From: Oceanibaculum pacificum
GTDB lineage: Bacteria > Pseudomonadota > Alphaproteobacteria > Oceanibaculales > Oceanibaculaceae
Direction: 5' to 3'
DNA length: 64,000 nucleotides
Assembly (NCBI RefSeq): GCF_001618175.1
Contig: NZ_LPXN01000001.1
Span: 62,001 to 126,000, forward strand
The notes beneath the pieces were generated by a model. That model was not told the DNA's origin and searched no databases. It saw only the letters and a list, made by a program, of their open reading frames with translations. The translations under genes and the position numbers were made by a program. How positions within the stretch are numbered: the first letter of the stretch is position 1; the number at the start of each line of letters is the position of its first letter. This document shows positions 1,366 to 49,310 of this stretch, one piece after another.

Positions 1366-1994
1366 CAGCGCGGCACCACCCCATGTGTCCGCAAAAAATC
1401 CAGCAACGGCAGCAATGGCAGACCGAGGATGGTGAAGTAATCCCCTTCGATCCGGCTGAAAAGCTGCGCGCCCAGCCCTTCGAGCTGATAGGCGCCAACG
1501 GAATTCAGGATCGGTTCGCCGGCGGCATCCAGATAGGCCTCGATGAAATCCGGCGACAGCACCCGCACCGCCAGGCTGGCGATGGAAAGATTGTGCCAAA
1601 GGCGCTGGCCGTCGCGCGCGACGACGATGCCGACCTGCAGCCGATGCGTCTTGCCGCTGAATGCCTGGAGGTGCGCGCGCGCATGGTCGCGGTCGACCGG
1701 CTTTTCGAACCACACGCCATTGCAGTCCAGCATCTGGTCGCAGCCGATGACCAGCGCGCCCGGATTGCGGCGCGACACACGCATCGCCTTCGCCTCGGCC
1801 AACGCGATGGCGGCGTCGCCCACGGTCGCCCCCTCGGCTTGCAGCGAGCGGCGTATTTCGGCCTCGTCGACCGGCGCGGCCTGGATGTCGAAATCAACGC
1901 CGGCATTGCGCAGCAGCTCGGCGCGGATGCGGCTGCCCGACGCCAGGATCAGTTTCTGCGGCGCGGGCCCGGTCAGCAAAGCCTCAGACGGCAT
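1365..1994 (-). CDS. maf: Maf-family nucleotide pyrophosphatase
   Basis: Maf proteins hydrolyse non-canonical or modified nucleoside triphosphates (dTTP, UTP or methylated variants, depending on subgroup). The 209-residue product has the family entry motif LASGSRIRAELL at residues 17-28 and the VIGCDQML segment around residue 85. I chose the ATG at 1994 over an upstream start at 2069 because it leaves a normal-length N-terminus and only an 11-bp overlap with the preceding regulator gene. The preferred substrate cannot be told from the sequence. Confidence 0.92.
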   Translation of the reverse strand: MPSEALLTGPAPQKLILASGSRIRAELLRNAGVDFDIQAAPVDEAEIRRSLQAEGATVGDAAIALAEAKAMRVSRRNPGALVIGCDQMLDCNGVWFEKPVDRDHARAHLQAFSGKTHRLQVGIVVARDGQRLWHNLSIASLAVRVLSPDFIEAYLDAAGEPILNSVGAYQLEGLGAQLFSRIEGDYFTILGLPLLPLLDFLRTHGVVPR

Positions 1995-2817
1995 CCTCAC
2001 GCTCCTTGCGTTCCTGATAAAGGCCAAGAATTTCCGCCGCGGTCTCTTCGATCGAGCGACGGCTGACATCGATCACCGGCCAGCCCTGGCGCTCGAATAG
2101 CCGGCGGGCCTCCGCCACTTCCCGGCGCACCTCGTCGAGATTGATATAATCGCTCTCCGAGCCTTGATTCAGCATCAGCAGCCGATTCCGGCGAATCTGC
2201 ACCAGCCGGTTCGGATCGTTGGTCAATCCAACCACCAGCGGCCCCGTCGCGGTGGTCACTTCACGCGGCAGCGGCACCCCCGGCACAAGCGGCACATTCG
2301 CCACCTTCAGCCCGCGATTGGCAAGATACAGGCAGGTCGGCGTTTTCGAAGTGCGCGAGACGCCAACCAGAAGAATATCGGCATGGTCGATATCGTGCAG
2401 TTGCTGCCCGTCATCGTGAATCAGGGTGAATTGCATCGCTTCGATACGGTTGAAATAGGCGGCGTCCAACTCGTGCTGGCGGCCCGGGCGGCCGCGCACC
2501 TTGCGGCCGAGATAGGTGTGCAGGGCCCCCAATACCGGGTCGAGCACCGAGATAACCGGGATATTCAGCCGGCGACCGGCCGCTTCCAGCCGAATCAGTA
2601 GCTGATGGTCGACCAGCGTGACCAGAATCGGCCCCGGATGCGCCTCGATGCCGGCGATCACCTTATCGACATGCGTCGAGGTGCGAACCAGCGACCAGGC
2701 ATGCTCGATCGCCTTCACACCCTCGAATTGCACCAGGCAGGCGCGGGCGACCTGGTGGATCGTCTCGCCCGTGGAATCCGAAACCAGATGAAGGTGGATC
2801 GTCTCAGTGCCGGTCAT
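1984..2817 (-). CDS. ppsR: Pyruvate, water dikinase / PPDK regulatory protein (DUF299 kinase-pyrophosphorylase)
   Basis: Members of this family (PSRP/PDRP) inactivate PEP synthase or pyruvate phosphate dikinase by ADP-dependent phosphorylation and reactivate it by phosphorolysis. The 277-residue product shows the N-terminal LVSDSTGET motif and the P-loop-like GVSRTSKT at residues 152-159. It is the first gene of the minus-strand group ending in dnaQ and is divergent from hemE across the candidate origin. Whether the target is PEP synthase or PPDK cannot be decided here. Confidence 0.92.
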   Translation of the reverse strand: MTGTETIHLHLVSDSTGETIHQVARACLVQFEGVKAIEHAWSLVRTSTHVDKVIAGIEAHPGPILVTLVDHQLLIRLEAAGRRLNIPVISVLDPVLGALHTYLGRKVRGRPGRQHELDAAYFNRIEAMQFTLIHDDGQQLHDIDHADILLVGVSRTSKTPTCLYLANRGLKVANVPLVPGVPLPREVTTATGPLVVGLTNDPNRLVQIRRNRLLMLNQGSESDYINLDEVRREVAEARRLFERQGWPVIDVSRRSIEETAAEILGLYQERKEREDAV

Positions 2818-3010
2818 GCCGTTCTCGTCATGCGCTCAGAAACTCTCTGGAAAATCGATAGAATCGGGGATAAGTCGGCTTTTGCCGGGATGCCGGAAAT
2901 TCGATCCCCCCAGCGCCGATTCGCCAGGGCGAGTTGCTCCGGTCGGGACGAATTATCCGGTCCCATCGGGATAACACCGGACTGGCATGGCCGGCAATGA
3001 TTCCTCCCCG

Positions 3011-3019
3011 CTATCCACA
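3011..3019 (+). promoter_or_regulatory. DnaA box-like nonamer CTATCCACA
   Basis: It matches TTATCCACA at 8 of 9 positions and is the best plus-strand match in the hemE-upstream gap. It lies 230 bp before hemE. Confidence 0.6.
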
Positions 3020-3103
3020 GGGCGAAGAAGTCCGGCCCTGTATCTACACAAGAGCGGCATTGTCTCGGCGTCTCCCCACAGGAACAGGATCGCCGCATCG
3101 GCC

Positions 3104-3112
3104 TGTGGTTAA
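3104..3112 (-). promoter_or_regulatory. DnaA box-like nonamer TTAACCACA
   Basis: It matches the consensus at 8 of 9 positions, lies on the opposite strand from the box at 3011, and sits next to the AT-rich segment of the candidate origin. Confidence 0.6.
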
Positions 3113-3243
3113 TTCTGTGCGGAAGCCGGGTGAGCCAATTAATCCCCAGCTTGCCACCCGATAAACAACAACCTCCACTATTTTTAGATTCTTCTTTTGT
3201 GTAAGGAAGGCGGAGTTATCCGACCCCCAGGCAAGGAACCGGC

Positions 3244-4278
3244 ATGACCGTCCCGACCCGCAAGCCCATGTTACGCGCGCTCTCCGGCGAAAGGCTGGAA
3301 CGGCCGCCATTCTGGCTGATGCGACAGGCCGGACGCTACCTGCCCGAATATCGCGAGCTTCGGGCAAAGGCCGGCGGTTTCCTCGATCTCTGCTTCAACC
3401 CGGCGCTGGCTTGCGAGGTCACCTTGCAGCCGATCCGGCGCTACGGCATGGATGCCGCGATTTTATTCTCCGATATCCTGGTCGTGCCTCACGGCCTTGG
3501 CCAGAAAGTTGCCTTCAAGGAAGGCGAGGGTCCGGTTCTCGATCCGATCCGATCCGCCGACGATATGGCAATGCTGTCGCTCGATGGTTTCCACGGGCGC
3601 GTGGAGGCGGTCTACGAGACCGTTGAGCGGATCAAGGCGTCCCTACCCCCGGAGACGGCGCTGATCGGCTTTGCCGGCTCTCCCTGGACCGTGGCGACCT
3701 ATATGGCGGAAGGGGGAGGCAGCAAGGAATATGTTTCCGTGAAACGGTGGGCCTATGGCGATCCGCAGAGCTTCGCCAGACTGATCGATCTGCTGGTCGA
3801 GGCCACCATCGCTTATCTCGACCGCCAGGTGCAGGCGGGGGCGGAAATCCTGCAACTGTTCGATAGCTGGGCCGGTGTGTTGCCGGAGCCGGCCTTCCGG
3901 CGCTGGGTGATCGAACCGACACAGCGTATCGTGGCCGCGCTGAAGCAGCGCCATCCGCATGTGCCCATCATTGGCTTCCCGCGTGGCGCCGGCGCGCTCT
4001 ATCGGGATTATGCAGCGGAGAGCGGCGTCAATGCCATATCGCTGGACACTGCGGTGCCTGTGGACTGGGCCGCGACGGAGCTGCAATCGAGCCTGCCGGT
4101 GCAAGGTAATCTCGATCCCATTCTGCTGGTTGCCGGCGGGGCGGTGCTGGACGCGGAGATCGAGCGGATTCTCGCCGGTTTCGCCGCTGGGCCGCATATC
4201 TTCAATCTCGGGCACGGCGTCACCCAGACCACGCCGCCGGAGAATGTCGAGGCGCTGGCGCGGCGTTTGCGCGCATAG
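3244..4278 (+). CDS. hemE: Uroporphyrinogen decarboxylase
   Basis: HemE removes the four acetate carboxyl groups of uroporphyrinogen III to give coproporphyrinogen III in haem synthesis. The 344-residue product has the family signature [18 protein letters not shown] near residue 20 and the later GFPRGAG and NLGHGV motifs. It begins a plus-strand run with hemH and hemJ. The region upstream combines its promoter with a candidate origin, so its transcription could be tied to origin activity; that link is inference. Confidence 0.97.
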
Positions 4279-7340: not shown

Positions 7341-7356
7341 TGTTTCACGTGAAACA
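7341..7356. other. parS: parS centromere site
   Basis: TGTTTCACGTGAAACA is a perfect 16-bp palindrome identical to the conserved ParB-binding site. It lies between the rho/qor terminator and the end of qor, and is 9.8 kb from parB. Confidence 0.93.
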
Positions 7357-13801: not shown

Positions 13802-13817
13802 TGTTTCACGTGAAACA
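13802..13817. other. parS: parS centromere site
   Basis: A perfect TGTTTCACGTGAAACA palindrome lies in the 75-bp gap between mnmE and mnmG, 3.3 kb from parB. Confidence 0.94.
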
Positions 13818-15726: not shown

Positions 15727-16336
15727 ATGCCGGCAATTTCAGGACCGGACCACTTGCGGGCTCATCTTCCTGTTTCACGTGAAACACTGGATCGGCTGCA
15801 AATCTATGTCGATCTGTTGCGGAGATGGCAGAGGGCGGTGAATCTCGTCGGCCCCAGTACGATCGAGGAGGTCTGGACCCGGCATATCCTCGATTCGGCT
15901 CAACTTCTGGCCTATATTCCCCAACAGGCAAAGAGTTTGCTTGATATTGGAACTGGTGCTGGCCTCCCCGGCCTTATCCTGGCTATCATGGGCGTCGAAC
16001 AGGTTCACCTGATGGAATCGGACGCCAAGAAGGTGACTTTTCTGCGCGAAGCGGCTCGATTGACGAAAACCAATGTGACGTTGCATCACGGCCGGATCGA
16101 AACACTAGAACCGTTTCCGGTCGATGTCGTGACGGCGAGAGCGTTAGCATCGGTCGAGGGACTACTGGATTATACCAGGCCATACCGGCAGGCGGACAGT
16201 GTGTGCCTCTTCCTCAAGGGAGGGGGGGTCGAGCAAGAGCTGCGGCAGGCCGCAACGCGTTGGAAAATGACGGTAAATCAGTTTCCAAGCGCCACGGCGG
16301 ATGAGGGCGTAATCCTTAAACTGGAGGCCATACGCG

Positions 16337-16347
<11 letters not shown>
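15727..16347 (+). CDS. rsmG: 16S rRNA (guanine-527-N7)-methyltransferase
   Basis: RsmG (GidB) methylates G527 of 16S rRNA using SAM. The 206-residue product has the SAM-binding LLDIGTGAGLPGLILA near residue 78 and the later VDVVTARALASV. The ATG at 15727 immediately follows the mnmG stop, so an upstream in-frame codon at 15694 is rejected. A perfect parS site is embedded in codons 15-20 (PVSRET), so this stretch must serve both the protein and ParB. Its 3' end overlaps parA by 11 bp. Confidence 0.96.
15771..15786. other. parS: parS centromere site inside rsmG
   Basis: A perfect TGTTTCACGTGAAACA palindrome lies within the rsmG coding sequence, 1.4 kb before parB. The reading frame encodes V-S-R-E-T through it. 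Confidence 0.93.
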
Positions 16348-17160
<813 letters not shown>

Positions 17161-17161
<1 letters not shown>

Positions 17162-18156
17162 TGGCACGGGAAAAACGACAGAATCTCGGGCGCGGCCTCG
17201 ACGCGCTCCTGGGCGAAGACAGTGACGATTACGCCGAGTTGGACCGCTTGCGGCAAACCAAAACCGTGCCAGTGGAGTATCTGGAGCCTGGGCCGTTTCA
17301 GCCCCGCCGCTATTTCGATCCCGAGGATATGACGGCGCTGATCGAGTCGGTGCGCGACAAGGGTGTGCTTCAGCCGATCCTGGTGCGCCGCCACCCGGCC
17401 GATCCGACGCGCTACCAGATCATTGCCGGCGAACGCCGCTGGCGCGCCACGCAGGAGGCGCAGCTGCACGAGGTGCCGGTCGTCATCCGTGATTTCGACG
17501 ACCGACAGGCGCTGGAAGTAGCTCTGGTCGAGAACATCCAGCGCCAGGATCTGACGCCGCTGGAAGAGGCCGAGGGCTATCAACGCCTGATGGAGGAGTT
17601 TGGCCATACCCAGGAAGAGCTGGCGACTGTCATTGGCAAGAGCCGCAGCCATATCGCCAATATGATGCGCCTGCTCGGCTTGCCGCCGCTGATCCGCCAG
17701 GCGGTGGAGGAGGGGAAGCTGACCGCCGGCCACGCCCGCGCCCTGCTCGGCGCGCCGGAATCGGAGGCGCTTGCTGCCCAAGTCATCAGCAAGGCGCTGA
17801 ATGTGCGCGAGACCGAACGTTTGGTGCAGAAGGCCAAGGATGGCGCGACCGAGGGCGGCAAGCGCCGCGCTTCCGGTTCCGGACGCCGCGCCGGCGGCGA
17901 AAAGGATGCCGATACGCTGTCGCTGGAACGCGACTTGTCGGCACTGCTCGGCCTGACCGTGTCGATCGATTTCGAATCCGGAGCGGGCGGCGTTCTGGCG
18001 ATCCGGTATCGCACGCTGGAACAGCTCGACGATGTGCTGTCGCGTCTTAGCCGCGGCGGCGGCCGGGCGGAAAGGATGCCTGCCGACAGGGATGCGGGTT
18101 ACGAGGATATAGATTCCGACGACCCGCTGGTGCCGTCGGCCGACCCCGAGGATTGA
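17161..18156 (+). CDS. parB: Chromosome partitioning protein ParB
   Basis: ParB binds parS, spreads along DNA as a CTP-dependent clamp, and activates ParA. The 331-residue product starts at the ATG that overlaps the parA stop (TGATG) with the typical [14 protein letters not shown]. The CTP-binding GERRWRA box lies near residue 92, followed by the helix-turn-helix [27 protein letters not shown] that reads parS. A low-complexity linker leads to a C-terminal dimerisation domain. Its stop abuts that of convergent holA. Confidence 0.96.

Positions 18157-48110: not shown

Positions 48111-49310
<1,200 letters not shown>

Follow-up and report, generated by a model that had tools for sequence, protein, structure and literature searches.

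In Caulobacter, the chromosomal origin Cori has the parS sites and the parAB genes nearby. Its position was mapped experimentally between hemE and the COG1806 gene, which carries DUF299, and it comprises an AT-rich segment of about 40 bp and a cluster of DnaA boxes (PMC1914354), described as mostly weak in Taylor 2011 as cited in PMC4468827. CtrA sites are a feature of the Caulobacter origin, but have not been seen in other alphaproteobacterial oris (PMC4468827), and one origin-encoded ncRNA is on record for Caulobacter (PMC8959179). An earlier study of Wolbachia took the view that ori sequences resemble each other only among close relatives (PMC1914354). Two further systems are useful for comparison. 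The basal unwinding system (BUS) of the Bacillus subtilis type, which combines a DnaA box with a DnaA-trio and calls for three or more trio motifs no farther than 16 bp from the box, has been predicted in 85% of 2070 bacterial oriCs (PMC8287927). In Escherichia coli, the unwinding 13-mers carry AGATCT with its embedded Dam site, a sequence confirmed in 5364 genomes.

The window analysed here, a stretch of 64,000 nucleotides of Oceanibaculum pacificum (G000:C1:62001-126000; genome of 3.89 Mb in 181 contigs, contig GC about 65%), has a divergently oriented DUF299 gene and hemE separated by 426 bp, and this gap is very probably the chromosomal oriC of the organism. The principal features of its setting are:

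1984..2817, minus strand: DUF299/COG1806 kinase-pyrophosphorylase gene (PF03618), left boundary
2818..3243, no strand: predicted oriC between DUF299 and hemE (box-count maximum, GC-skew minimum, parS proximity, Cori synteny; PMC1914354)
3102..3220, no strand: most conserved block of the gap in the alignment of four congeners
3244..4278, plus strand: hemE (PF01208), right boundary gene

The sequence-only reading of this DNA had proposed the gap as a candidate origin, free of genes and adjacent to hemE as in Caulobacter, and all of this held: the flanks are those of the experimentally mapped Cori (PMC1914354), no recognisable gene lies in the 426 bp, where only overlapping mechanical ORFs are found, and the box cluster, the skew minimum, the proximity of parS and the congener gaps agree. 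An origin-encoded ncRNA was also considered for the gap and rejected, as Rfam gave no match. One difference from Cori is that CtrA sites of the form TTAA-N7-TTAA, allowing up to one mismatch, are absent from the 426-bp gap. For the IHF site, another Caulobacter feature, a search confined to a strict consensus gave no match in the gap.

As in Cori, the gap contains a cluster of DnaA-box-like sites, identified by mismatch count to TTATCCACA and distributed over both strands:

2846..2854, minus strand: TTTTCCAGA, 7/9
2865..2873, minus strand: TTATCCCCG, 7/9, also by congener comparison
2966..2974, minus strand: TTATCCCGA, 7/9
3011..3019, plus strand: CTATCCACA, 8/9, with congener equivalents at gap position 176-199
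3040..3048, plus strand: GTATCTACA, 7/9
3104..3112, minus strand: TTAACCACA, 8/9, with congener minus-strand equivalents at gap position 297-302
3140..3148, plus strand: TAATCCCCA, 7/9, part of the class-wide ATCCCC/TTATCCACA block beside the trio repeats

The two 8/9 matches had been recognised before, but the 7/9 sites number five rather than the three then counted, two having been overlooked; an exact TTATCCACA does not occur in the gap. These seven boxes with at most two mismatches are 14 times the contig average, which is 0.5 per 426 bp. No other 426-bp window in 180 kb of contig has as many, the runner-up having five, and when the gap was shuffled 500 times, seven was never attained. In the orthologous gaps of three congeners, 7, 7 and 6 such boxes are found, numbers equalled by no shuffle, so that the conservation in relatives proposed earlier as a check was indeed observed. 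Several box positions correspond across the congeners although their letters drift; for instance, each of the three has a minus-strand TTATCCCCN, equivalent to the box at 2865-2873, at gap position 38-53. Conservation is strongest at 3102-3220, with 12-17 identical columns per 30 versus 2-12 elsewhere in the gap among the four congeners.

The position of the gap on the chromosome points the same way. Over 180 kb of contig C1, the cumulative GC skew has its minimum some 250 bp away from the gap, at window position 3491, albeit with a small amplitude and on one contig of a 181-contig assembly rather than on a closed chromosome. A congener (G002) offers a 790-kb contig with a V-shaped cumulative skew, which runs from 0 to about -5400 and back to about -2000; its minimum at 522 kb lies 12 kb from hemE at 534 kb, thus bearing out, together with C1, the expectation of a minimum at this locus, but the trough spans about 100 kb and hence supports the region rather than an exact base. 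In a single-contig relative (G031), the sign change of the skew lies no more than a few hundred kb from hemE, a shallow signal that only brackets the locus. The partition system lies close by, again as the sequence-only reading had stated:

7341..7356, no strand: perfect parS TGTTTCACGTGAAACA, exact match
13802..13817, no strand: perfect parS TGTTTCACGTGAAACA, exact match
15771..15786, no strand: perfect parS TGTTTCACGTGAAACA, exact match
16337..17161, plus strand: parA
about 17161..18156, plus strand: parB, its start set at an ATG within the ORF opening at 17089

These three are the sole perfect parS sites in the genome and lie 4-13 kb from the gap; G002 likewise has three, at 538-547 kb (G002:C12 538455, 544887 and 546862), and their spacing is nearly equal in both species, at about 6.45 and 1.97 kb. 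The site at 15771 falls within the start of an rsmG-like ORF.

Orthologous gaps were gathered from 23 relatives, from 54 loci of GTDB and from another 76 loci, of which 138 were left after similar ones had been dropped; this removal is the only treatment of kinship. Divergently arranged DUF299 and hemE occur in 23 of 30 relatives, and the scan of 78 GTDB loci gave 54 such cases; among the later loci, hemE was found in 78 and the arrangement in 76 of these, most of this set having been selected for the presence of DUF299. Conversely, 24 loci, many of them from Bradyrhizobium, lack DUF299 within 3 kb of hemE, and nearly all of these are devoid of box, trio and AGANTCT upstream of hemE. The few exceptions that keep the features without a DUF299 neighbour (e.g., L058, L066 and L089) would fit an origin that has stayed beside hemE. 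In L059, L077, L085, L087 and other Bradyrhizobium loci, hemE is apart from DUF299 and its upstream region lacks origin features; in those genomes, the origin probably lies elsewhere.

This bears on a competing explanation, according to which the gap would be a mere divergent promoter for DUF299 and hemE, its boxes being DnaA-regulated promoter sites, and the origin would lie elsewhere, for example beside dnaA. The gap does sit between divergent genes, and dnaA is 80 kb away with a perfect TTATCCACA box nearby at G000:C1:146391 (dnaA domain match 144544-145026, minus strand). However, the skew at dnaA is +460, far from the minimum of about -320, the box-count maximum of the contig is the gap itself, and the parS sites cluster by the gap. 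Furthermore, since hemE loci without DUF299 mostly lack the boxes, the trio and AGANTCT, these features do not represent a hemE promoter. The promoter explanation is therefore highly improbable, and an origin beside dnaA was rejected on skew and box counts. The perfect box near dnaA possibly serves dnaA autoregulation.

If the gap is taken as the origin, the side facing hemE shows the elements expected for strand opening:

3161..3200, no strand: AT-richest 40 nt (72.5% AT, by composition), presumed DNA-unwinding element
3164..3180, plus strand: DnaA-trio-like repeats AACAACAACCTCCACTA, aligned to ACTACTACTACCACTA in a congener, a weak match within this genome alone

An AT-rich segment beside the boxes had been noted before and is present, but this trio-like and AT-rich core on the hemE side had been overlooked. 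The trio-like run starts 15 bp past the 7/9 box at 3140-3148; it is imperfect, the local match being weak, and a class profile built without this genus missed it (E=91 for the local trio segment, the best match in the gap being a DnaA box with E=0.18), so that its assignment rests on the within-genus alignment. Across the class, the core is easier to recognise. In many gaps, the layout near hemE consists of ATCCCC(G/A)TTATCCACAGG or a decayed form of it, followed by ATCCACTACTACTACC-like repeats and then by an AT-rich stretch; the window segment matching this core is 3140-3200, inside the conserved block. The repeats are strand-specific, with 120 CTAC versus 2 GTAG across the 138 gaps, and trio-like runs are confined to one strand, where 71/138 gaps have them as against 0/138 for the other (36/54 versus 0/54 in a validation set). 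In five loci (L094, L104, L109, L115 and L118, from Mesorhizobium, Aminobacter and others), there are 3-4 tandem GANTC-like units (CAGACTCTTAGAATCAGAAGAATCTT...) in the AT-rich segment, at the place where a clear trio run is seen in other orders.

Across the class, the arrangement resembles the BUS in its succession of a box, a short spacer, strand-specific trinucleotide repeats and an AT-rich segment. It differs in that this genus has a degenerate box next to the trio, the repeats here are mixtures of CAA, CCA and CTA, and AGANTCT comes next, in the AT-rich segment. By analogy with known systems, DnaA-ATP would load cooperatively on the weak boxes and, starting at the repeat-proximal box, spread onto the trio-like strand, whereupon the AT-rich segment 3161-3200 would melt in the manner of a BUS; the helicase would then be loaded at the melted segment and two forks would start. 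Since DUF299/hemE is the known position of Cori, and weak boxes as well as the absence of CtrA sites outside Caulobacter are on record, the origin is of an already known type, and it is the class-wide AGANTCT element that is worth following up.

The gap holds four GANTC sites, corresponding to 9.4/kb versus 2.0/kb on the contig, one of them within the presumed unwinding element:

2861..2865, no strand: GANTC site (GAATC), motif match
2918..2922, no strand: GANTC site (GATTC), motif match
2999..3003, no strand: GANTC site (GATTC), motif match
3186..3192, no strand: AGATTCT, local copy of the class-wide AGANTCT within the AT-rich segment, holding the CcrM-type GANTC 3187-3191

GANTC is retained in the AT-rich segment of all four congeners, its middle base varying (GATTC, GATTC, GAGTC and GAATC). 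When the AT-richest 60 nt of each gap are considered, GANTC occurs in 44 of 73 non-redundant gaps, as against 12.7 in shuffles and 2-21 for palindromes of the same composition, and AT-rich windows contain GANTC in 70% of cases at the origin versus 24% elsewhere in the same loci (p=1e-8). The longer palindrome AGANTCT is present in 42/138 gaps, where dinucleotide shuffles give 5.3 and no other palindrome of its composition exceeds 9, and in 25/43 origin versus 5/211 AT-rich control windows (p=2e-18). The motif was first noticed in part of these data, and 54 further gaps were tested afterwards; here GANTC was found in 24/54 gaps versus 9.0, and AGANTCT in 9/54 versus 0.87, a real but weaker effect. 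With regard to its flanks, GANTC is preceded by A in 73% and followed by T in 58% of cases, a conservation confined to the AT-rich segment. Judged by its sequence distribution, AGANTCT appears to be under selection in the AT-rich segment. No description of this element was found in a literature search confined to open-access papers.

GANTC is the methylation site of CcrM, and its usual reader at promoters is GcrA; in Caulobacter, CcrM and GcrA are coupled. The window itself encodes a candidate methylase:

48165..49310, plus strand: ccrM-type DNA methyltransferase (N6_N4_Mtase and RAMA domains), presumed GANTC methylase

Some 45 kb separate this gene from the origin; its counterparts in G001, G002 and G003 share a contig with hemE, at a distance of 46-48 kb. 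GcrA (PF07750) was not detected in the whole genomes of G000-G003 although CcrM is present, so that the coupling seems to be missing in this genus and a GcrA-promoter role of GANTC becomes less likely.

One possible, if doubtful, explanation for AGANTCT is that it is selected via CcrM methylation, the methylation state affecting melting or re-initiation as with the Dam sites in the E. coli 13-mers. It would account for the enrichment of AGANTCT and GANTC in the AT-rich segment with the middle base left free, and it agrees with a CcrM-type gene in 23/23 of the relatives searched first as well as in this window, with the undetected GcrA and with the Dam site of the E. coli AGATCT. Against it, about 70% of gaps are without AGANTCT and, in Agrobacterium, CcrM depletion affected ori2 but not measurably ori1 (PMC11514494). 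Moreover, genomes in which two kinds of search detected no CcrM keep GANTC in the AT-rich window in 7/11 gaps, some of it stemming from a GGGATTCAC box-like context, and AGANTCT in 2/11. This comparison, which bears on CcrM as the cause of GANTC, did not separate CcrM-lacking from CcrM-bearing genomes, and the presence of GANTC in the former means that a dependence of initiation on methylation is not implied. The same persistence without CcrM speaks for a methylation-independent role, in which AGANTCT would be selected as a DnaA-ATP contact, like the AGATCT 6-mers in the E. coli unwinding element, or as a melting-prone palindrome; this alternative, a plausible one though held at somewhat below even chances, also fits the conservation of the flanks beyond GANTC, but it is a prediction from sequence and the CcrM-lacking genomes are few (11 gaps). 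On either account, the likeness to the 13-mers lies in a methylation-site palindrome set between A and T inside an unwinding element; the site is GATC (Dam) there and GANTC (CcrM type) here, homology is not implied, and the role here is a predicted one.

With this gap, the replication origin of the lineage is very probably located, and DUF299/hemE gaps from a broad sample of Alphaproteobacteria are seen to share a core of weak boxes, strand-specific trio-like repeats and an AGANTCT-bearing AT-rich segment. We tentatively suggest that hemE-linked alphaproteobacterial origins may share AGANTCT as an unwinding-element palindrome just past the DnaA-trio, with a CcrM site embedded in it. CcrM and IHF sites were reportedly conserved only among close freshwater Caulobacters (Shaheen 2009), and a class-wide enrichment of GANTC and AGANTCT would extend that conservation of CcrM sites. 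If AGANTCT is indeed shared in this way, it would form a parallel to the AGATCT that carries the Dam site in the 13-mers of E. coli, and it would couple the melting of the origin, or its re-initiation, to a methylation clock. AGANTCT makes an old question directly testable, namely whether the origin itself is a place of action of CcrM methylation in this class.
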